This document shows positions 3,082-50,053 of a DNA stretch of 54,987 nt, piece by piece; within the stretch, counting starts at the first letter, position 1, and the number at the start of each line of letters is the position of its first letter. This stretch comes from an uncultured Spirochaetales bacterium (GTDB lineage Bacteria > Spirochaetota > Spirochaetia > Sphaerochaetales > Sphaerochaetaceae), in NCBI GenBank assembly GCA_944392695.1, contig CALXXN010000014.1:1-54987 (forward strand), written 5' to 3'. The notes beneath the pieces are model-generated. The model saw only the letters and a list, made by a program, of their open reading frames with translations. It made no database searches and was not told where the DNA came from. The translations under genes were made by a program, and so were the position numbers.

Positions 3082-3642
3082 TTACGCCTTATTTCGGGCA
3101 TTCAGCATTCTATAGAAGGTCGCTCTACTCAACCCCAGCCTCTTCTGAGCTTGGGCAGCTGTCAGCTCCTTGGCCTTGTAGAGTCCGATGACATAATCCC
3201 ACTCTGTAGGCTTCGCAATGGGTTTCCGCCCCTTATATTTTCCTTCAGCCTTTGCGATGGCGATTCCTTCAGCCTGACGCTGAAGAGTACATTCCCGTTC
3301 GAATTGAGAAAGGCCAGCAAAGATGGTGAGCATAAGTTTGCCTTGAGGTGTCGTAGTATCGATGTTCTCTTTCAAGGAAACGAATGACACTTTCTTCTCC
3401 TGAAGCTTGTCGATGATGAGGAGAAGATCCTTCGTAGACCTGGCCAAGCGGGAATAGGACTCGACAATCACCGTGTCTCCTTCCCGCACGAAATCCAATA
3501 GTTCCCTCAGCTTCGGACGATTCATGTCCTTGCCTGAGATTTTCTCCTCGAAGACTCTCTCAACTCCATGGTTCTTAAATGCTTCTTCCTGTCTTGCAGG
3601 ATTCTGATCAGCGGCGCTGACCCTGATGTAACCAACTGTCAT
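3082..3642 (-). CDS. Serine recombinase, resolvase/invertase family
   Basis: Small serine recombinase of 186 aa, the usual length of Tn3-type resolvases and DNA invertases. The N-terminus MTVGYIRVSAADQNPARQ places the nucleophile at Ser9. The catalytic-domain core VIVESYSRLARSTKDLL and FAGLSQFERE follow, then a C-terminal helix-turn-helix (LTAAQAQKRLGLSRATFYRML). The start at 3642 is chosen because GGGAGG lies six bases upstream and the fold begins there; a longer frame to 3801 is open but would cross the putative recombination site. It probably resolves or inverts DNA in this island. Repeats of GAGAC lie just upstream of its start (3684-3758), where resolvase sites usually sit. Confidence 0.92.
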   Translation of the reverse strand: MTVGYIRVSAADQNPARQEEAFKNHGVERVFEEKISGKDMNRPKLRELLDFVREGDTVIVESYSRLARSTKDLLLIIDKLQEKKVSFVSLKENIDTTTPQGKLMLTIFAGLSQFERECTLQRQAEGIAIAKAEGKYKGRKPIAKPTEWDYVIGLYKAKELTAAQAQKRLGLSRATFYRMLNARNKA

Positions 3643-3682
3643 AATGACCTCCCAAAGTACCAATAAAGTGGTGGTGAAGATA

Positions 3683-3758
3683 TGAGACGGATTTGTCTCA
3701 ATAACGAACTTCAATGAGACTGTTTCAGAAGTATCACTGGTGTATACCCCATTGAGAC
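3683..3758. other. Candidate recombination (res-like) site
   Basis: TGAGAC, a six-base spacer and GTCTCA form a perfect inverted repeat at 3683-3700. Two further copies of TGAGAC lie at 3715-3720 and 3753-3758. The array is 41 bases upstream of the recombinase start, the usual place for res or an autoregulated promoter. The assignment to the recombinase is an inference from position and symmetry. Confidence 0.45.
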
Positions 3759-3812
3759 CGCATCTCGGCCAGTTAATGGTTGCCCATAACCAAAAGTTCA
3801 ATCATGCATTCA

Positions 3813-3898
3813 ACGTTTACCTTCCCTTTTTCCAAGTGATGGATGGTAAACATGATAAACGCTTACAGAATAATCAGTTATTTCTAAAAGGTAAACAC
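3813..3898. repeat. Short AAGGTAAAC-type repeats
   Basis: AAGGTAAACGT (minus strand, 3813-3823), TGGTAAACAT (3844-3853), GATAAACGCT (3854-3863) and AAGGTAAACAC (3888-3898) recur within 90 bases in an AT-rich gap between the recombinase and the 114-aa ORF. They could be operator or replication-type repeats. No protein partner is identified. Confidence 0.3.
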
Positions 3899-3968
3899 TC
3901 CTTATTTATCTTGCCCAACGTACACATTTCCAAGGGATTGAAGTACACGCTGACTTGAAACTCTTCTC

Positions 3969-4313
3969 TTAAGAGAAGCTGTATCTATCAGCGTCCACAA
4001 TGCCTGGAGACTGACTTCTCTGTCGTCTTTTCTTCAAAGGTACGCTGCTCTTTAACAGCTGTTTCCTGATTGACGACAGCTCATTCATTGTGTCATTCGC
4101 AATGACATGAAGCTCTGCATAGAAAACCCGACTCTCAGCGTCAGACATCTCCTGATAGTGTCCTTCATATGTAGACCAGAGAGAATCCCAGCGTTCAACA
4201 TTATCCTGGATCATCTTCAGTTTCAGCTGCATCAATGGAGTCTGCATTTCTTTCCTGACCTTATTGACCATTTCAGATCCATCCATCAAATCAAAGAGTC
4301 GGAGATGAAACAC
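3969..4313 (-). CDS. Hypothetical island protein, helical
   Basis: Open frame of 114 aa, rich in charged residues and predicted from composition to be helical in the middle, with a basic tail (KKRRQRSQSP). I do not recognise a family. Possible starts are at 4313, 4286 (MDGSEMVNK) and 4271; none has a strong ribosome site, so the N-terminus is uncertain. It is read in the same direction as the replication-initiator-like gene and the integrase, and lies after the inverted-repeat region, so it may be the last gene of the element. It could also be a non-functional frame. Confidence 0.45.
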   Translation of the reverse strand: MFHLRLFDLMDGSEMVNKVRKEMQTPLMQLKLKMIQDNVERWDSLWSTYEGHYQEMSDAESRVFYAELHVIANDTMNELSSIRKQLLKSSVPLKKRRQRSQSPGIVDADRYSFS

Positions 4314-4365
4314 GCATGCATACCTTCGTTTTCAACGGCTGTCCGTTCCTTTGATTTTTTTCTAG

Positions 4366-4498
4366 AGTGGAAAAATGCTCCACCTTTTTGAAGGTCGCAT
4401 TTTCCCCCTCTTCATTTTTCCACTCGTTCCAAGGAGTTGGCTTTTTAAGCGAAGTGTGAGTCGTTGATACACTTCGCTGGCTCGAAAAAGCCCTCCTT
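4366..4498. repeat. Cluster of long inverted repeats
   Basis: Two nested structures lie side by side. AGTGGAAAAATG at 4366-4377 is repeated inverted at 4413-4424 (12 of 12). AGCGAAGTGT at 4448-4457 is repeated inverted at 4469-4478 (10 of 10), and this stem extends through flanking AAGGAG..GGCTTTTT (4431-4446) against AAAAAGCCCTCCTT (4485-4498). Part of it could terminate transcription. The size and the position beside a replication-initiator-like gene also fit a replication or transfer origin. Confidence 0.5.
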
Positions 4499-4525
4499 TA
4501 CTTACTTGGTTGCTTCATTCATTAA

Positions 4526-4624
4526 TTAATTCCCTGCCATAAGATGAATCAACGCGACATCCAGAAACAGATCCGGATCTTTATCCAGGAATAAAGTCAG
4601 AACATATTCCAGAACCTTTTCCAT
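4526..4624 (-). CDS. Possible 32-aa small protein
   Basis: Frame beginning MEKVLEYVLTLFLDKD and ending LIHLMAGN, with regularly spaced hydrophobic residues that could form an amphipathic helix. It lies between the initiator-like gene and the large inverted repeats, and its 5' part overlaps the 12-base repeats. No clear ribosome site is seen. It is only a candidate. Confidence 0.22.
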   Translation of the reverse strand: MEKVLEYVLTLFLDKDPDLFLDVALIHLMAGN

Positions 4625-4660
4625 ATTTGATTCCAGATGTCATTCCACATTCTATTCCAG
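4606..4660. repeat. ATTCCAG repeats at 12-base spacing
   Basis: ATTCCAG or ATTCCAC occurs at 4606, 4630, 4642 and 4654. The steps are 24, 12 and 12 bases, so a 12-base period is kept with one unit degenerate near 4618. Looser copies (ATCCAG) precede it at 4583. The array lies 55 bases beyond the 3' end of the initiator-like gene, so iterons are possible; decayed coding repeats are the alternative. Confidence 0.4.
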
Positions 4661-4715
4661 TACCATTTGAATTCCTCGTAACATATTTAGTTACAAGGAA
4701 TTTTCAGTTACAAAC

Positions 4716-5171
4716 CTATTCAGAATCCTCACTCTGTGATGCTGTTTTCCTTGTTGATTTCCTGCGTGTAGACTTTGGCAAATCTTCCTCCATTTTGTAG
4801 GCGGCCTCACCCCTCTCCCTTATCCTATAGAGTCCAGTGTATCTGTCACGAACAAGATGTTTCCTGAACTCCAGCCGGGTTGACAGATAATTTCTGTCAC
4901 CCTTGAATGTGTTCATGAGATGCCAGTGAGTGATGGCGATATACTCAAAGCCTGGTACTGTGATGATGTACTTGTTCTTCACCAGATACCGAAAAGGTTC
5001 AGCATCCTCTGTCATGTTGAAAATGGAGAGGATGCTTGGGTAAGGCACAATCCCTAAATCATCTGCCGAAATGACAAGATACATATAGAGGGAGCGAGCC
5101 TCAGCCCCACCTTTGATGAATTCTGGTTCCATGATGACATCATTTGAGATCATCCTTCGCCCAAGCGACAT
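4716..5171 (-). CDS. Phage/element replication initiator-like protein (replisome organiser N-terminal type)
   Basis: Protein of 151 aa that resembles the N-terminal winged-helix domain of phage replisome organisers and DnaD-like initiators. The recognisable run is RRMISNDVI..EFIKGGAEARSLYMYLVISADDLG, followed by NKYIITVPGFEYIAITHWH, the arrangement seen in phage replication proteins. The C-terminal third is basic (KSTRRKSTRKT) and lacks a DnaD helicase-loader domain. The start at 5171 is preferred over the upstream GTG (5177) because GAGAGG lies seven bases before it. It begins three bases after the excisionase stop, so translation is probably coupled. Role by inference: replication of the excised element. 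Confidence 0.6.
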   Translation of the reverse strand: MSLGRRMISNDVIMEPEFIKGGAEARSLYMYLVISADDLGIVPYPSILSIFNMTEDAEPFRYLVKNKYIITVPGFEYIAITHWHLMNTFKGDRNYLSTRLEFRKHLVRDRYTGLYRIRERGEAAYKMEEDLPKSTRRKSTRKTASQSEDSE

Positions 5172-5173
5172 AA

Positions 5174-5389
5174 TCACACCTCTCTGGATATAAGTTGTGC
5201 CTCATAGCCCTTATCGTTAGACGGATCAGTCGAGCACTGCTTCACATAGTCTTCAAGATCCGAGTCCAGGATGTAGACACGTCCACCGAACTTACGCCCT
5301 GTAAGTTTCTTTTTGTAGATTTCACGTCTCAAGACGGAAACCGAGATTCCCAGCTTGTCAGCTGCTTCGTAAATCGAGTATGTAGTCAT
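5174..5389 (-). CDS. Excisionase-type helix-turn-helix protein
   Basis: Small DNA-binding protein of 71 aa. YSIYEAADKLGISVSVLRRE is a MerR/excisionase helix-turn-helix, followed by the wing FGGRVYILDSDLEDYV. The start at 5389 has AAGGAGG seven bases upstream; a longer frame to 5452 would lie inside the integrase. It overlaps the integrase 3' end by 32 bases and is followed directly by the initiator-like gene, so the three form an operon. Such proteins usually set the direction of integrase-mediated recombination. Confidence 0.75.
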   Translation of the reverse strand: MTTYSIYEAADKLGISVSVLRREIYKKKLTGRKFGGRVYILDSDLEDYVKQCSTDPSNDKGYEAQLISREV

Positions 5390-6644
5390 ACGTCTTCCTC
5401 CTTGTTCTTTTCCTTGAAGTCTTGTATTCATCCGAGAGGTCAAGAATGTCATGATTCATGAACCACTCGACTGATTCATCATCAAAGAGCACCTTTTGGG
5501 CATCGAGAATCTTCTGGTAATGGATTGGAAGAACCTGGAAATAGTGCTCAAGGGCTACGTTCTCACTCGTCCATCCCAGAATTCCGCGATGGATGTCACT
5601 GGAGAGAGTGCCTGTCATCATCGAGTTGAACATCTTCCTCAGCGAGTGGAAGTCGATACCCGATTCCTTGACATCTTCTGGAGTCATTCCAGTGACAAGA
5701 CCAAGCTCCTTGCGGAACTGGTAGAGATTCTTGTCGATAGAAATCGGCTTCTTACCCTGAGTGTTCGAGAAACACAGATTCGTCCTGCTGAGATTGATTA
5801 CAGGATGAATGAACTCATAGACCCAACGAGGGATGACAGTAAGGCGATTACGCCCATTCTTAGGACTCTTCTCCTTGTTCTTTTCCGTAAGGCTCCTGCG
5901 GATATGGAGAACAACACAGTCCTCGCATTCACTCTTGCCATAGTAGGGCTCAAAGTCTTCCTTCTTGAGCGCTCTGATCTCAGAGACGCGCATGCCAGTG
6001 AAGAAACAGACCATCGAAACAGCCTGGTTGATAGGATTGCTCCATCCCTTCATCAGCATCTTGCGATAGTCCTCGATATTACCTGGGATGCGATTCTTTT
6101 TGGGCTTTGGACGTGCCATCTTGAATGTCGAATCAAATGGCGTGTGCTCCATCCAGCCAACCTCGACACAGTAATCAAAGAACTCGCGGGCTTCATCGAT
6201 GCAGTAATGGACTGTCTTATCGGCAAGCCCTTTTCTGACAAGGGAATTCTTGTAAGCATGGATGTCTTCAACTGAGAGGCTCGACAGTTTCTTCTTCCCA
6301 AGTGCAGGGATGAAATGATTTTCAAATCTTGCTGTCACCTGGGAAATCGAATGGTTTTGGCAAATTTCCTTGCGTCCTGTCGCCCTTCTGGTCATGAAGA
6401 TTCTGCATGCGGAGGCTACAGTAACCGGCTTTTCCCTCTTTTCTTCTACAGGAGTGTTCTTCTTCATGTACTCATCAAAGAGTTCCTTGGCCTTGATACC
6501 AGCCTCGCGCCTTGAGGCATGAAAGATTATCTGCTTATAGCCAGAGCGCTTCGAGGAATCCCTGATTGCAAGAACATAACGATCCTTACCTCCGTTTATA
6601 TTGGCTTTCGAATAGTAATACGGTTCTGAATTGACTCTGGCCAT
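5358..6644 (-). CDS. Tyrosine recombinase (integrase)
   Basis: Site-specific integrase of 428 aa. An N-terminal arm-binding region is followed by the SAM-like core-binding domain (about 78-165) and a catalytic domain with Arg219 (TGMRVSEIRAL), His333 and Arg336 (DFHSLRKMFN), Trp358 in the second-histidine position, and the nucleophile Tyr368 (ALEHYFQV). The start at 6644 is chosen because AGGAGG lies five bases upstream; eight further codons are open. A promoter with TTGACA and TAGATT faces it from 6730. It likely integrates and excises the island between about 3 and 11 kb. No tRNA gene or obvious attachment duplication was found within the window. Confidence 0.93.
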   Translation of the reverse strand: MARVNSEPYYYSKANINGGKDRYVLAIRDSSKRSGYKQIIFHASRREAGIKAKELFDEYMKKNTPVEEKREKPVTVASACRIFMTRRATGRKEICQNHSISQVTARFENHFIPALGKKKLSSLSVEDIHAYKNSLVRKGLADKTVHYCIDEAREFFDYCVEVGWMEHTPFDSTFKMARPKPKKNRIPGNIEDYRKMLMKGWSNPINQAVSMVCFFTGMRVSEIRALKKEDFEPYYGKSECEDCVVLHIRRSLTEKNKEKSPKNGRNRLTVIPRWVYEFIHPVINLSRTNLCFSNTQGKKPISIDKNLYQFRKELGLVTGMTPEDVKESGIDFHSLRKMFNSMMTGTLSSDIHRGILGWTSENVALEHYFQVLPIHYQKILDAQKVLFDDESVEWFMNHDILDLSDEYKTSRKRTRRKTYDYILDLRSS

Positions 6645-38031: not shown

Positions 38032-38121
38032 CAATGCCTGTACAAGGAAGTGCATCAATGATGAGCGTCATCGGCGATGTGCTTTTTTTTTCAGGCAAAT
38101 CCAAAGCAAGGGGGGAGAGGA

Positions 38122-39855
38122 ATGTATAGTGCGACAGATGTGATCTGGGTACTTGTCGGCTCTATCCTGGTGTTCTTCATGCAAGCGGGTTTCGCACTGT
38201 GCGAAGCCGGACTGACAAGGGCGAAGAACACAGGGAACATCCTGATGAAGAACATGATGGACTTCTGCATTGGAGTCCCATGTTTCTGGTTGATCGGATT
38301 TGGAATCATGTTCGCAGGAAGCGGACCGCTGATCGGGGGCTTCGATCCGCTGATCCGAGGTGCTTACGACTTCGGCTCATTGCCTACATGGTGCTATGCG
38401 ATCTTCCAGACGGTCTTCTGTGCAACAGCGGCGACAATCGTGTCTGGCTCAATGGCGGAGCGCACGAACTTCAAAGCCTATTGCATCTACAGTGCGGCGA
38501 TCAGCCTTATCGTCTACCCTATCTCCGGGCATTGGATCTGGGGAGGAGGCTGGCTTTCATGGTTTGGCTTCCATGACTTCGCAGGTTCCACCTGTGTCCA
38601 CATGGTAGGTGGCCTTGTCGCATGTCTTGGCGCAGCCATGCTCGGGCCACGGATTGGCAAATATGGCAAGGATGGCAAGCCCAAGGCGATTCCGGGACAC
38701 AACCTGACAGCAATGGCGCTTGGCGTATTCATACTCTGGTTCTGTTGGTTCGGTTTCAATGGAGGCTCCACTGTCGCTATGAGCTCTGATGCCGACATGG
38801 AACTCGCCTCGCTCGTGATGTTCAACACAAACCTTGCGGCAGCGGTCGCAACCGTCGCAGCGATGATCCTCACCTGGATACGCTACGGCAAACCTGATGT
38901 CTCAATGACATTCAACGCAGCGCTTGCAGGCCTCGTCGCTGTCACCGCCCCATGCGACTGCATATCACCTGTGGGGGCATTCTTCATCAGCCTGGTTGCT
39001 GGCATCCTCGTCGTCTTCTCTGTCGAGTTCTTCGACAAAGTCGCAAAAATAGACGACCCTGTGGGTGCGGTCTCCGTGCACATGGTCAATGGCATCTGGG
39101 GGACGATCGCAGTCGGCCTCTTCAGCACAGGAGGCAACGGAGTGGGCTTGGGCCTGTTCTATGGGGGAGGTCTCAGCCAACTGCTTGTCCAGCTTGCTGG
39201 AATCGCATCAGTCGCATGCTACGTGCTCGTCGTCATGTTCATCATCTTCAAAATCATTGACAAGACAGTAGGACTGCGTGTTCCTGCGAAAGTGGAAATC
39301 GATGGTCTGGACATCCATGAGCACGGCCTCGCATCTGCCTACTCAGGCTTCGCGATCAGTGATGTCTCCGCACTTGAGATGGAAGCAAATGAGAACACAG
39401 ACCTGGGTGAGGACAACTATGACAAGGCGACTGCTGAGCAGAAAGCGGCCGCTGTCAAAGTCACGAGCAGGAAAACCATTGTGGACGGCGTATACGACAC
39501 GGGCATGCACAAAGTCAGCATCATATGCCGCCTATCACGCTTCGACGCGCTCAAGAGCGCACTCAACAAGCTTGGAGTAACTGGCATCACAATGACACAG
39601 GTCATGGGTTGCGGTCTGCAGAAAGGCGCTGGAGAGAAATACCGTGGCGTCGAAGTCGATGTGAACCTGATTCCGAAGGTCAAGGTGGAAGTCGTTGTAA
39701 GCAAGATTCCTGTCGACTCTGTCATCGAAGTTGCAAAGAAAGCGCTCTACACAGGGCATATCGGAGACGGGAAGATCTTCGTCTACAACGTCACAAGGGT
39801 TGTCAAAGTCAGGACCGGCGAGGAAGACTACGCCGCACTCCAAGATGTCGAGTGA
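38122..39855 (+). CDS. amt: Ammonium channel fused to a P-II domain
   Basis: Protein of 577 aa. The Amt part (about 1-400) has eleven predicted membrane segments, the opening FMQAGFALCEAGLTRAKN, and the pore twin histidines in TCVHMVGG (near residue 160) and VSVHMVNGIWG (near 320). A polar linker of about 60 residues leads to a P-II domain (about 462-570): KVSIICRLSRFDALKSALNK, GITMTQVMGCG, the T-loop KYRGVEVDV with the usual tyrosine, and GDGKIFVYNVTRVVKVRTGEE. P-II normally blocks Amt in trans as GlnK; here it is built in. The start at 38122 follows AAGGGGGGAGAGG. Confidence 0.93.
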   Translation: MYSATDVIWVLVGSILVFFMQAGFALCEAGLTRAKNTGNILMKNMMDFCIGVPCFWLIGFGIMFAGSGPLIGGFDPLIRGAYDFGSLPTWCYAIFQTVFCATAATIVSGSMAERTNFKAYCIYSAAISLIVYPISGHWIWGGGWLSWFGFHDFAGSTCVHMVGGLVACLGAAMLGPRIGKYGKDGKPKAIPGHNLTAMALGVFILWFCWFGFNGGSTVAMSSDADMELASLVMFNTNLAAAVATVAAMILTWIRYGKPDVSMTFNAALAGLVAVTAPCDCISPVGAFFISLVAGILVVFSVEFFDKVAKIDDPVGAVSVHMVNGIWGTIAVGLFSTGGNGVGLGLFYGGGLSQLLVQLAGIASVACYVLVVMFIIFKIIDKTVGLRVPAKVEIDGLDIHEHGLASAYSGFAISDVSALEMEANENTDLGEDNYDKATAEQKAAAVKVTSRKTIVDGVYDTGMHKVSIICRLSRFDALKSALNKLGVTGITMTQVMGCGLQKGAGEKYRGVEVDVNLIPKVKVEVVVSKIPVDSVIEVAKKALYTGHIGDGKIFVYNVTRVVKVRTGEEDYAALQDVE

Positions 39856-45426: not shown

Positions 45427-46005
45427 TCAACCCAAAGTGGAGAATTCACGCACAGGGACTGAGAAAATCACAGCACGGCCACGCTTCTTGAGCACTTCCA
45501 TGCCCTCTATCGCCTCGATGACACGGGCTGCGGTATCATCTTCAAGGACAATCATCAGGATTTCCTTCTCCGGCACGAGCGGTGAGCCGAAGAACTTCAC
45601 ATCAGCCTCCGTGCTTGTCCCGTGTGCATCGACGACAGTGCCACCCTTGGCTCCAGCCTTGCGCGCCACAGCCATGATCTCCTCGCTGAAACCTTCCTCA
45701 CAAATCACTTCGACAAGTGTCCAACCTTTTCCCATATCCCCTCCTTCTCCCGCCAGGAGCAGCATGCCCTTGGCCTTGGCCTTTTGAGCGGCCTTGAATA
45801 CAGAGTGCGCGTCTTCTTTCCGGACGAAGCTCGTCAGGACCTCCATGTAACTATCGCCCAGGCCCAGGGCTGCAAGTATAGTGTTTGAAGCCGTGCCCCT
45901 GGCGCTGTTGATAGTGCCCCCTGTGGCTCCGGCCTTGCGTGCGGCCTCCATTACAGCCTTCGCCTGGTGACGACGGACTATGGCAAGCAACATGTCAGTT
46001 CCCAT
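45427..46005 (-). CDS. Tandem P-II-like regulatory protein
   Basis: Cytoplasmic protein of 192 aa built of two P-II-type ferredoxin folds. The first (about 1-95) runs MLLAIVRRHQAKAVMEAARK, AGATGGTINSARGTA; the second (about 100-190) runs WTLVEVICEEGFSEEIMAVA, AGAKGGTVVDAHGTS, then KEILMIVLEDDTAARVIEAI. Both keep the P-II GGT..GRG-type turn but lack the Tyr-x-Gly T-loop used for uridylylation. The start at 46005 has GGGGAGG six bases upstream and overlaps the DUF1538 gene by 11 bases. It probably regulates that membrane protein. Confidence 0.85.
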   Translation of the reverse strand: MGTDMLLAIVRRHQAKAVMEAARKAGATGGTINSARGTASNTILAALGLGDSYMEVLTSFVRKEDAHSVFKAAQKAKAKGMLLLAGEGGDMGKGWTLVEVICEEGFSEEIMAVARKAGAKGGTVVDAHGTSTEADVKFFGSPLVPEKEILMIVLEDDTAARVIEAIEGMEVLKKRGRAVIFSVPVREFSTLG

Positions 46006-47437
46006 CTTGGACCTCCCCGCCCTTGGCGCTCTTGATCCTATAAACAATACCCAGGAGCTCTGTCAGAAGGACAGGCATCATCGCAATCATGGCTATCATG
46101 CCGAAGGACGCGCTCGTCGAGCCGGATGCGGCCCCCATGGCCAGAGGCAACAGGAAGGTCGAACTCATCGGACCAGTGGCGACACCGCCGGAATCAAAAG
46201 CGATCGCAGAGAAAAGCCCAGGCGTCCAGATCATCAAAACCAGTATCAGCGCATAGCCAGGAAGCAGGAGGTACCAGATTGAGAACGAGCATACGGTCCT
46301 GACCAAGGCCAGGACGACTGCCAGTCCAACGCCAAGTGCCAGCGTGGCCAGCATGAGGCGCTTGGGTATCCTGCCCCCACTGGCTTCTTCCACCTGGCCA
46401 GTCAGGACAATGACGGCAGGCTCTGCCAGGACGACGCAGAGGCCAAAGATGAAGCCGGCAACATAAAGCCAGGGCCCACCGGCCGCGAGCAGGGCAGCAC
46501 CCAGTTCCCGGGCAAGGGACGAGAATGAGTATTCGACCCCTGTGAAGAAGATGACGATGCCGATAAAAGCCCAGAAGATGCCAGAGAAGACACGTACCGC
46601 CTCCATTTTCGGCAACTTCAGGAAGAAGACCTGGGCCATGATGCAGACGATGACAAGCGGAAGCAGGGACAGCGCGACCTCGCCAAGCTTCGAGAGGAAG
46701 AGTCCTCCAAGACCAAGCGCGGCCTCATCTCCCGACAAGACAGCGGAGCCACCAGGGCCACCGCTGAAAAGGCCAAGGAGCAACACCGCGAGCACAGGCC
46801 CTGTCGATGAGAGGGCGACATAACCAAACGAGGCCTCATCATCATGCTTCCGGAGCGAAGCCACACCCATGCCCAAGGCCATGATGAATGGCACTGAGAG
46901 AGGGCCAGTTGTCGCACCACCCGAGTCAAAGGCGACAGAGACAAAGAAGTCATCATTGAAGGCGGCAACAGCGAAGATCACCAGATAACAGGTCCATAGC
47001 ACTGCCTTCATCTTCCACCCAAGTACCGTGCGTGCAAGCGAGATGGCCAGGAAAAGTCCGACACCAAGTGCGATGAAGACCGTCAATGTCATCGTGGGGA
47101 TTGATGACGCGACCTGGTGCACCTGCCCTGACAGGACCTGGACGTCAGGCTCAGGTATCGTGATGATCACACCCAGTATGAAGGCGCAAACAAGCATCAC
47201 CGAAAGCCGCTTCGACTTCGTCAAAGCCGATCCTATCCTGCTTCCCATTGGCAGGAGGCCTACGTCGACACCTGTCAAGAAGAAGGTCAGTCCAATGATC
47301 ACAAGGACGCAGGACACTACGAAGGCTGCCAGCTGGCTGCCATCCATCACACCAAGCATGAAGGACAGGATGGTTGCGAAAAGACCGATTGGAAGGACTG
47401 ACAGTGTCACTTCCTTCAGTTGCCTGATGAAGTCCAA
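45995..47437 (-). CDS. DUF1538 membrane protein, internally duplicated
   Basis: Membrane protein of 480 aa with about twelve hydrophobic segments arranged as two similar halves. Each half carries the DUF1538 signature: AFDSGGATTGPLSVPF near residue 168 and AFDSGGVATGPMSSTF near 411, plus TFFLTGVDVGLLPMG and the matching IFFTGVEYSFSSLA. In Halomonas a two-gene DUF1538 pair (UmpAB) has been reported as a Na+/H+ antiporter (from memory), so cation exchange is plausible. Here both halves are fused. The 3' end overlaps the tandem P-II gene, a strong hint of P-II control. Confidence 0.85.
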   Translation of the reverse strand: MDFIRQLKEVTLSVLPIGLFATILSFMLGVMDGSQLAAFVVSCVLVIIGLTFFLTGVDVGLLPMGSRIGSALTKSKRLSVMLVCAFILGVIITIPEPDVQVLSGQVHQVASSIPTMTLTVFIALGVGLFLAISLARTVLGWKMKAVLWTCYLVIFAVAAFNDDFFVSVAFDSGGATTGPLSVPFIMALGMGVASLRKHDDEASFGYVALSSTGPVLAVLLLGLFSGGPGGSAVLSGDEAALGLGGLFLSKLGEVALSLLPLVIVCIMAQVFFLKLPKMEAVRVFSGIFWAFIGIVIFFTGVEYSFSSLARELGAALLAAGGPWLYVAGFIFGLCVVLAEPAVIVLTGQVEEASGGRIPKRLMLATLALGVGLAVVLALVRTVCSFSIWYLLLPGYALILVLMIWTPGLFSAIAFDSGGVATGPMSSTFLLPLAMGAASGSTSASFGMIAMIAMMPVLLTELLGIVYRIKSAKGGEVQDGN

Positions 47438-47447
47438 TCCAGTACTC

Positions 47448-47801
47448 CTATTCCATCGGGCAGGTCACCTGTACAAGACGTTCGACAGTGTTGTGCAGTA
47501 TGCCGGCCTGGTCTGTGTCAGCAGCACGGTAGTAGACCTCCTTGCCAACCCTGCGGCTCACGATAAGTCCGGAAGTCTTCAAGGAACGCAGGTGGTGGGA
47601 GACCGCTGGAGCGCTCATCCCGACAATGGATGCAAGGTTCGTCACACATTCCTCGCAGTGGCAGAGGACCCAGAAGATCCTTATCCTGCTGCCATCGCAC
47701 AGCTGCTTGAATATGTCTGCGACAATCTGGAAATCGTCGTCCTTTGGTATGACACCAAGGTCGAAGCCGAGATGTCCATGATCATGGGGTAGTTGTCCCA
47801 T
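47448..47801 (-). CDS. ArsR/SmtB-family metal-responsive repressor
   Basis: Small winged-helix repressor of 117 aa of the CadC/SmtB type. The N-terminus is His-rich (PHDHGHLGFD), VLCHCEECVTNLASIVG contains the helix-3 metal site with three cysteines, and MSAPAVSHHLRSLKTSGLIV is the recognition helix. GGAGG precedes the ATG. It is divergent from the metal-binding protein and P-type ATPase and 138 bases away, with a matching operator between, so it very likely represses them until Zn, Cd or Pb binds. It ends ten bases before the DUF1538 start on the same strand. Confidence 0.92.
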   Translation of the reverse strand: MGQLPHDHGHLGFDLGVIPKDDDFQIVADIFKQLCDGSRIRIFWVLCHCEECVTNLASIVGMSAPAVSHHLRSLKTSGLIVSRRVGKEVYYRAADTDQAGILHNTVERLVQVTCPME

Positions 47802-47938: not shown

Positions 47939-48157
47939 ATGACCAGGAACTATAAAATCGATGTCGACTGCCCAGCCTGTGCTGCGAAGATGGAAGCCGC
48001 CGCCAAGAAGGTGGAAGGCGTCAAGGATGCTGTTGTGAACTTCATGGCGCTGAAAATGAAGGTGGACTTCGAGGAAGGAACAGATCCTGGCGCTGTCATG
48101 CCCTCTGTACGCAAGGCATGCAAGAGGGTCGAGGCTGACTGCGAAGTCTTCATCTGA
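47939..48157 (+). CDS. Heavy-metal-associated (HMA) domain protein
   Basis: Metallochaperone-like protein of 72 aa. The HMA metal site is VDCPACAAKMEAAAKKVEG, a D-C-x-x-C pattern typical of the N-terminal domain of ZntA/CadA rather than of copper chaperones. AGGAGG precedes the ATG. It lies three bases upstream of the P-type ATPase, which lacks its own N-terminal domain, so the two genes are a split form of one CadA protein. It probably delivers metal to, or regulates, the pump. Confidence 0.88.
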   Translation: MTRNYKIDVDCPACAAKMEAAAKKVEGVKDAVVNFMALKMKVDFEEGTDPGAVMPSVRKACKRVEADCEVFI

Positions 48158-48160
48158 GGC

Positions 48161-50053
48161 ATGGCCATGACAATGACAGCGAAACAGAAGAAGACATTTG
48201 GCCGCATCATCATCGCCGCCTTGATGGTCGTGGTGCTCCATTTCATACCATCAACAGGGCTCTTACGCTTCATACTGTACATGATCCCCTACCTCGTGAT
48301 TGGCTACGACATACTCTTGAAGGCAGCCAGGAACATAGCCCATGGCCAGGTGTTTGACGAGTGCTTCCTGATGTGCGTGGCCACACTTGGTGCGATCGCC
48401 CTCGCCATCTGGGAAGGCAGCGGGGACTACACTGAGGCTGTCGCAGTCATGCTTTTCTACCAGATAGGAGAGTTCTTCCAAGGCTATGCTGTATCAAAAA
48501 GCAGGAAAAGCATCAGCGAGTTGATGGATATCCGGCCGGACAGCGCCAACATCGAACAGGACGGCAGCCTTGTCACCGTGGATCCTGATGACGTGGCCGT
48601 CGGAAGCATCATCGTCGTCCGCCCTGGTGAGAAGGTGCCTATCGATGGCGTTGTCACATCAGGGGCATCAAGCCTTGATACAAGCGCATTGACAGGAGAG
48701 CCTGTACCACGGTCCATCCACGAAGGCGACGAGGTCGCAAGTGGATGCGTGAACCTAAGTGGGGAAATCCATATAAGGACCACAAAGGAGGCTGGTGAAT
48801 CGACTGCCTCCAAGATCCTTGACCTTGTCGAGAACGCGGGTTCACGCAAGTCGAGGAGCGAGGACTTCATCACACGTTTCTCACGGGTCTACACGCCAGC
48901 AGTCTGCATCGCGGCACTCGCCCTCGCCCTGCTACCACCGCTGGTCCGCCTTGCCATGGGCCTGGCTCCGACATGGCATGACTGGATCTACCGTGCACTG
49001 ACATTCCTTGTCATCAGCTGCCCCTGTGCGCTCGTGATAAGCATCCCACTCTCATTCTTCGCCGGCATCGGAGGAGCAAGCAGGGAGGGCGTGCTCGTCA
49101 AGGGTTCGAATTACCTGGAGGCGCTGTCAAAGGTGCGTACTGTCGTATTCGACAAGACCGGTACGCTGACCAAGGGTGTCTTCACTGTAAACGAAGTCCA
49201 TCACAACAAGCTCCCCAGGCAAGAGGTCCTTGGCCTGGCCGCCCATGCTGAAGCCTCCTCCAGCCACCCGGTTGCACGTAGCATCGAGGCAGCCTGGGAT
49301 GGCAAGGTCGACCGGAAACGCATAGCCGGCATCCAAGAGTACCCAGGAGAGGGGGTGACCGCCAGTGTGGATGACAAGGCCGTGGCCGTTGGCAATGGAC
49401 GCCTCATGTCAAGACTGGGCATCGAGGCCCCAGGATGCCATTGCAGTGGAACGCTTGTGCATGTCGCAGTTGATGGATCTTATGAAGGGCATCTCGTGAT
49501 CAGCGATGTCATCAAACCAAATGCGAAAGCGGCCATCGACGCCCTTCACGCCAGTGGGGTCCAGCGCTGTGTCATGCTGACAGGGGACAGGATGGAAGCT
49601 GCAAAGGATACCGCATCCTCGCTTGGCATCGATGAAGTGCATGCACAGCTCCTGCCAGGAGACAAGGTCAGCGCGCTGGAAGGCCTGATGGATGGAAGCG
49701 GCAAGGCCCTCACCGCCTTTGTCGGTGATGGGATCAACGATGCACCCGTGCTCTCCCGTGCTGATGTCGGTATCGCCATGGGTGCCATGGGGTCTGATGC
49801 CGCAATCGAGGCAGCCGATGTCGTACTGATGGACGATGATCCGCTCAAGGTTGCAAAAGCCATCAGGCTCAGCCGGCGTTGCATGAGGATCGTGTGGGAG
49901 AACATCATCTTCGCCCTTGGTGTCAAAGGAATCTGCCTGCTCCTGGGAGCCTTCGGCATAGCCAACATGTGGCTTGCCATATTCGCAGATGTTGGAGTGA
50001 TGGTGATCGCGGTCCTGAACGCAATACGGGCACTCAAAGCCGGACGCACCTGA
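48161..50053 (+). CDS. P1B-type metal-exporting ATPase (Zn/Cd/Pb)
   Basis: Membrane pump of 630 aa. The transmembrane metal site is SCPCALVIS with Cys287-Pro-Cys289. The actuator loop DTSALTGEPVPR, the phosphorylation site FDKTGTLTKG with Asp331, SSSHPVARS (the HP locus), MLTGDRMEAAKDTA and VGDGINDAPVL are intact. Class P1B-2 is inferred from the overall similarity to CadA/ZntA. The N-terminal metal-binding domain is encoded separately just upstream. ATGs at 48161 and 48167 are both possible starts. It exports metal under the ArsR repressor. Confidence 0.93.
   Translation: MAMTMTAKQKKTFGRIIIAALMVVVLHFIPSTGLLRFILYMIPYLVIGYDILLKAARNIAHGQVFDECFLMCVATLGAIALAIWEGSGDYTEAVAVMLFYQIGEFFQGYAVSKSRKSISELMDIRPDSANIEQDGSLVTVDPDDVAVGSIIVVRPGEKVPIDGVVTSGASSLDTSALTGEPVPRSIHEGDEVASGCVNLSGEIHIRTTKEAGESTASKILDLVENAGSRKSRSEDFITRFSRVYTPAVCIAALALALLPPLVRLAMGLAPTWHDWIYRALTFLVISCPCALVISIPLSFFAGIGGASREGVLVKGSNYLEALSKVRTVVFDKTGTLTKGVFTVNEVHHNKLPRQEVLGLAAHAEASSSHPVARSIEAAWDGKVDRKRIAGIQEYPGEGVTASVDDKAVAVGNGRLMSRLGIEAPGCHCSGTLVHVAVDGSYEGHLVISDVIKPNAKAAIDALHASGVQRCVMLTGDRMEAAKDTASSLGIDEVHAQLLPGDKVSALEGLMDGSGKALTAFVGDGINDAPVLSRADVGIAMGAMGSDAAIEAADVVLMDDDPLKVAKAIRLSRRCMRIVWENIIFALGVKGICLLLGAFGIANMWLAIFADVGVMVIAVLNAIRALKAGRT

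Follow-up and report, generated by a model that had tools for sequence, protein, structure and literature searches.

Introduction

According to a 2023 review, the transporters controlled by P-II proteins comprise AmtB, Amt1, NrtABCD, UrtABCDE and SbtA (PMC10710835). Among membrane proteins of the DUF1538 family, the only characterized members are UmpA and UmpB of Halomonas zhaodongensis, whose heterodimer exchanges Na+ (Li+,K+) for H+; the pair is functional in E. coli from a clone without a P-II gene, and the paper describing it makes no mention of P-II (PMC5484666). DUF1538 is also listed among pH-adaptation genes in a machine-learning study (PMC13255231). NCBI annotation already names the neighboring genes “DUF1538” and “P-II family nitrogen regulator.” A literature search, with subscription papers and preprints outside its scope, found five papers that mention DUF1538, but no paper joining it with P-II and none on a pairing of P-II-like proteins with CPA exchangers. 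Within the literature searched, P-II control of such cation/proton exchangers appears to be undescribed, which is no proof of novelty.

Here, we analyzed a window of 54,987 nt, the whole stretch of DNA under study, from an uncultured Spirochaetales bacterium (contig CALXXN010000014.1). It carries a tandem P-II-like gene that overlaps the end of a fused DUF1538 gene. We consider it rather probable that the two products form one system, a cation/proton antiporter with a dedicated, ligand-responsive, post-translational regulator.

Organization of the Gene Pair

Both genes are located on the minus strand. The DUF1538 gene (45995-47437) starts with a TTG codon at 47437, stops at 45995 and encodes in 480 codons a fused membrane protein with 7+7 predicted helices (AF2), which matches Pfam PF07556 in two stretches (E 9.4e-115, 381.7 bits against a cut-off of 22.6). 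Its Shine-Dalgarno sequence AGGAG (47445-47449) overlaps the stop codon of an upstream ArsR gene. The P-II gene (45427-46005) comprises 192 codons from an ATG start at 46005 to a stop at 45427, and its product matches PF00543 (E 2.8e-11, 44.1 bits against a cut-off of 25). The end of the DUF1538 gene and the P-II start share 11 bp (45995-46005), and the Shine-Dalgarno sequence of the P-II gene, GGGGAGG (46012-46018), lies within the DUF1538 reading frame. In both proteins the two halves are mutually homologous, as found by profile-profile comparison for P-II (99.6% probability, E 1e-24) and by profile comparison for DUF1538 (E 6e-53). An earlier note on this DNA had described a 192-aa double P-II-like protein overlapping a 480-aa fused DUF1538 protein by 11 bases, and the reading frames, Pfam matches and half-against-half profiles bear this out; the interval 45995-47437 given there covers the DUF1538 gene alone, the P-II gene reaching 45427. 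For RNA elements, there was no Rfam match, and predicted terminators and promoters occurred in numbers similar to those in shuffled sequence.

The Tandem P-II-Like Protein

The AlphaFold2 model of the protein consists of two ferredoxin-like domains with the P-II fold (pLDDT 86.9). The N-terminal domain (residues 1-88; 45742-46005, minus strand) is more divergent and is recognized by its profile-profile match to the C-terminal domain (residues 92-192; 45430-45732, minus strand), which carries the core GAxGGT...RGT..E.D.KFFG....PEKE that is kept in relatives. In structure superpositions of the model, this C-terminal domain fits GlnB, GlnZ and SbtB at 1.7-2.1 Å over 83-90 residues, with Z scores of about 8. 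Its T-loop equivalent (residues 130-145; 45571-45618, minus strand; TSTEADVKFFGSPLVP) contains no tyrosine.

The same window encodes a canonical P-II domain, fused to an Amt transporter in a 592-aa protein about 6 kb from the pair (38077-39855, plus strand). This domain possesses the uridylylation motif around Tyr51, the GDGK B-loop and the C-terminal RTGE, all of which are absent from the 85 related ORFs (0/85 for each). Furthermore, the T-loop equivalent has 16 residues in 77/77 sequences measured, vs. 21 in the Amt-fused domain. For GlnD, the window's genome, which is 96.5% complete, yielded only weak partial matches below the cut-off. On the basis of the motif loss and the missing GlnD, we rejected a canonical nitrogen (GlnB/GlnK) P-II, and both agree with the proposal of the earlier note that signaling would proceed without uridylylation.

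Judged by alignment, the counterparts of the glycine-threonine in the P-II nucleotide site appear to be kept, and those of the phosphate-binding lysine and arginines appear to be missing. A pattern of this kind makes a modified nucleotide a plausible ligand. The tandem and multi-domain forms imply an assembly unlike the P-II homotrimer, in which ligands are bound between subunits.

The DUF1538 Protein

The model of the DUF1538 protein (pLDDT 92.9, pTM 0.92; AlphaFold2) comprises half 1 (residues 1-226; 46760-47437, minus strand) and half 2 (residues 237-480; 45998-46729, minus strand). Each half contains two helices with a break, and the breaks coincide with the conserved motifs EP(D/A) and FDSGGxxTGP. 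The acidic residues at these breaks, E96 (47150-47152) and D171 (46925-46927) in half 1 and E339 (46421-46423) and D415 (46193-46195) in half 2, are invariant across 58 diverse family members. Positive charges are found in alternating loops, and the charged loops of one half complement those of the other. From this pattern, the positive-inside rule predicts that the halves are inverted relative to each other and that both the N- and the C-terminus are cytosolic, along with loops around residues 72-78, 139-145, 193-206, 270-279 and 351-361; the cytosol is also where a P-II domain fused to the C-terminus, as found in one Spirochaete genome (see below), would sit.

A fold search of the PDB returned as its best Foldseek hit a weak match (E 0.0096, TM 0.15), which is not proof of a new fold, and the best VIA match was weak as well (Z 5.4, rmsd 5.9 Å over 113 residues). 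Sequence relatives of DUF1538 were not found in the PDB. The claim of the earlier note that DUF1538 had been tied to cation/proton exchange in one halophile corresponds to the published UmpAB pair (PMC5484666). The window protein scores below the NCBIfam cut-offs of the UmpA and UmpB equivalogs NF041627 and NF041628 (136/490 and 107/500 bits), so that for this branch we can only infer antiport; context supports such an activity.

Conservation of the Pairing

A genome-wide scan identified 80 DUF1538/P-II loci, mainly in Spirochaetes, Clostridia and Desulfovibrio-type bacteria. In 77/77 of these loci that are free of contig-end cuts, the P-II gene lies 3' of DUF1538 on the same strand, and the median distance from the DUF1538 stop to the start of the P-II profile is -6 nt (73 pairs that have just one P-II ORF, including the window's pair and a second pair of its genome). 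Among the matches listed, 77 of 82 DUF1538 loci in 296 Spirochaete genomes and 83 of 86 in 249 Bacillota genomes show the same pairing. The five remaining Spirochaete loci comprise one at a contig end, one that shares its neighbor's P-II gene and three, two in genome G281 and one in G295, whose P-II gene is located elsewhere. Pseudomonadota were sampled via plasmids alone (Methylocystis and Chelativorans); across 72,556 plasmids, the DUF1538 query matches nine, and the Methylocystis P-II subtype matches the same nine. In 13 of the 15 genomes reached through the loci, A3 P-II matches occur solely beside DUF1538, the other two having an extra single-domain copy and a weak match, respectively. 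The pair distances of the two families correlate (Mantel r 0.77, 0/2000 permutations), a figure that still contains the shared species tree. The pairing is far beyond chance.

The second pair of the window's genome, on contig C5, consists of a 511-aa DUF1538 gene followed by a 222-aa tandem P-II gene with an overlap of 8 bp. Compared with the window's pair, the transporters are 39% and the P-II proteins 24% identical. The C5 transporter shows up to 57% identity to Clostridial ones, and the closest matches of the C5 P-II are again of the Clostridial type, though at about 33% identity only. A transposase-like ORF (IS605 OrfB-type, by eye; L005:8418-9653, minus strand) is located directly upstream, and the two C5 genes may therefore have been acquired jointly. 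At another locus (L145, G224:C33), one tandem P-II gene has a fused DUF1538 gene on either side, with all three on the same strand.

The number of P-II domains follows the architecture of the transporter. In Bacillota, two P-II domains stand behind a fused DUF1538 gene in 47/47 cases; among the split DUF1538 pairs, 17 come with one single P-II gene, 6 with two such genes and 13 with a tandem gene. In this phylum, a lone single-domain P-II never accompanies fused DUF1538 (Fisher p 4e-8, with loci counted as independent and kinship ignored). The Methylocystis and Chelativorans plasmids likewise encode DUF1538 as two separate genes, with one single-domain P-II gene behind them. Where the DUF1538 protein is more distant and longer, the next gene encodes a 370-490-aa protein containing about three P-II-like domains. 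A stop-free ORF of 623 aa in one Spirochaete genome (L118) joins DUF1538 to a P-II domain at the C-terminus (profile E 3e-17), and an additional tandem P-II gene is present just upstream of it.

The earlier note had suggested a dedicated regulator-transporter pair and proposed looking for conserved adjacency in other genomes. Adjacency was found in three phyla, so the pairing is not refuted, and plasmid co-occurrence, the fusion, correlated divergence and matched architectures lend the suggestion further support. Since the pair stays together across several phyla, P-II probably acts as a switch of the transporter. A permanent structural subunit that stabilizes or assembles the transporter and undergoes no ligand-driven switch would show the same near-obligate pairing, the same match in domain numbers and the one fusion, and the loss of the canonical ligand motifs would fit such a role. 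However, the strongly kept GAxGGT...RGT...KFFG...PEKE core and the fixed 16-residue loop suggest a binding site, UmpAB is active in E. coli from a clone without a P-II gene (PMC5484666), and a few P-IIs persist without DUF1538, so that we regard a purely structural subunit as unlikely.

Genomic Context

The DUF1538 gene of the window is preceded, at a distance of 10 bp, by a gene for an ArsR/SmtB regulator that contains the Cys-rich segment LCHCEEC (47448-47801, minus strand; PF01022/NF033788). Divergently from it, a P1B ATPase with a heavy-metal-binding start is encoded at 47939-50053 (plus strand), which the ArsR protein probably also serves. ArsR was considered as a conserved third component and rejected, as the nearest relatives (L038-L047) do not share this upstream placement; the ArsR/P1B genes that occur close to some Treponema loci are located downstream.

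In five close relatives (L043-L047), OAD_beta, the beta subunit of Na+-transporting oxaloacetate decarboxylase, is encoded directly upstream of DUF1538. In genome G295, whose DUF1538 gene has no P-II beside it, a tandem P-II gene (L124:4016-4729, plus strand) immediately precedes, on the 5' side, the gene for an NhaC-type Na+/H+ antiporter (4713-6365, plus strand; PF03553). The Na+ pump, the NhaC neighbor and the pH-adaptation listing point in the same direction as cation/proton antiport.

In 27/30 Clostridia loci (L144; L146-L175), the gene next to that of a CPA Na+/H+ exchanger on its 5' side encodes a member of a separate, single-domain P-II-like family. In L144, the P-II-like gene (4271-4645, minus strand; PF00543 E 1e-4, below the cut-off) abuts the exchanger gene (3106-4296, minus strand; PF00999 E 1.6e-29).

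DUF1538 might carry bicarbonate, an organic ion or a metal under P-II regulation, as the bicarbonate transporter SbtA with SbtB sets a precedent (PMC8352866, PMC10710835) and as the ArsR gene 10 bp upstream, the divergent P1B ATPase and the ArsR/P1B genes near a few Treponema loci could hint at metals. On the other hand, ArsR is not retained in the nearest relatives, Na+-pump and antiporter neighbors recur, and Na+(Li+,K+)/H+ antiport is the activity of the only relatives that have been tested (PMC5484666). We therefore assign a low probability to a substrate other than cations exchanged for protons.

Tandem P-II genes without an adjacent DUF1538 gene were found in G281, G295 and G528, and no DUF1538 was detected in the tandem-P-II genomes G091 and G291. 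At two loci of such genomes, the tandem P-II gene lies between MTAN and BirA (L120:4292-4945, plus strand) or between MTAN with LuxS and BirA (L119:4456-5082, minus strand); at this MTAN-(LuxS-)P-II-BirA site, other Treponema carry DUF1538, for which the two Treponema-type genomes of L119 and L120 gave no match. P-IIs of these kinds may therefore have another target. That P-II mainly acts on other cell components and is adjacent to DUF1538 for co-expression only, as the orphan P-IIs of L119/L120 and the unlinked ones of G281, G295 and G528 would allow, is nevertheless highly improbable in view of the L118 fusion protein, the coupled domain numbers and the plasmid co-occurrence (9/9).

Proposed Mechanism and Implications

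In the model of a regulated antiporter, DUF1538 would be a secondary transporter composed of two inverted halves that most likely exchanges Na+ (K+,Li+) for H+, and the cytosolic tandem P-II protein would dock onto it. Binding of a ligand to P-II, probably a nucleotide, would then change the activity of the transporter, in analogy to the control of AmtB by GlnK and of SbtA by SbtB. Direct binding of P-II to DUF1538, the ligand, the direction of control and antiport in the window's branch are the parts of this model that we infer. The distance of UmpAB, the absence of a confident fold match for DUF1538 in the PDB, the P-IIs without an adjacent DUF1538 gene and the metal-type ArsR/P1B context count against it.

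If the model of a P-II-regulated antiporter holds, P-II signaling would extend to pH and sodium homeostasis, DUF1538 would gain a regulator, and a case would be at hand in which the number of P-II domains tracks the architecture of the transporter. The CPA exchanger pairing in 27/30 Clostridia loci suggests a wider P-II-antiporter theme. With less than even confidence, we put forward that P-II-like proteins might generally serve to control cation/proton antiporters, with separate subfamilies paired with DUF1538, with CPA-type exchangers and occasionally with NhaC. Such control would link the energy or nutrient status of the cell to the homeostasis of Na+ and pH via single, tandem and multi-domain P-II chains.

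Comparison with Known Systems

UmpAB resembles the transporter of the window in belonging to the DUF1538 family and in possessing two homologous halves with seven predicted transmembrane helices each. It differs in consisting of two separate proteins, in its distant sequence and in the absence of P-II from both the functional clone and the paper (PMC5484666). GlnK-AmtB shares with the pair a P-II protein that is encoded with the transporter under its control. However, GlnK is a canonical single-domain P-II with a uridylylated T-loop and AmtB a trimeric ammonium channel, whereas the window pair combines a tandem P-II with a shorter loop, no GlnD and an unrelated transporter. The Amt-P-II fusion of the window (38077-39855) likewise joins P-II to a transporter, but its P-II is canonical, with a Y[KR]G motif and GDGK. 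In SbtB-SbtA, as in the window pair, a non-canonical P-II-like protein accompanies a secondary transporter (PMC8352866), and the C-terminal P-II domain of the window superposes on SbtB at 2.0 Å over 83 residues; SbtB, however, has a single domain and SbtA is a trimeric bicarbonate transporter, whereas DUF1538 is built of two halves and no solved relative of it was found.
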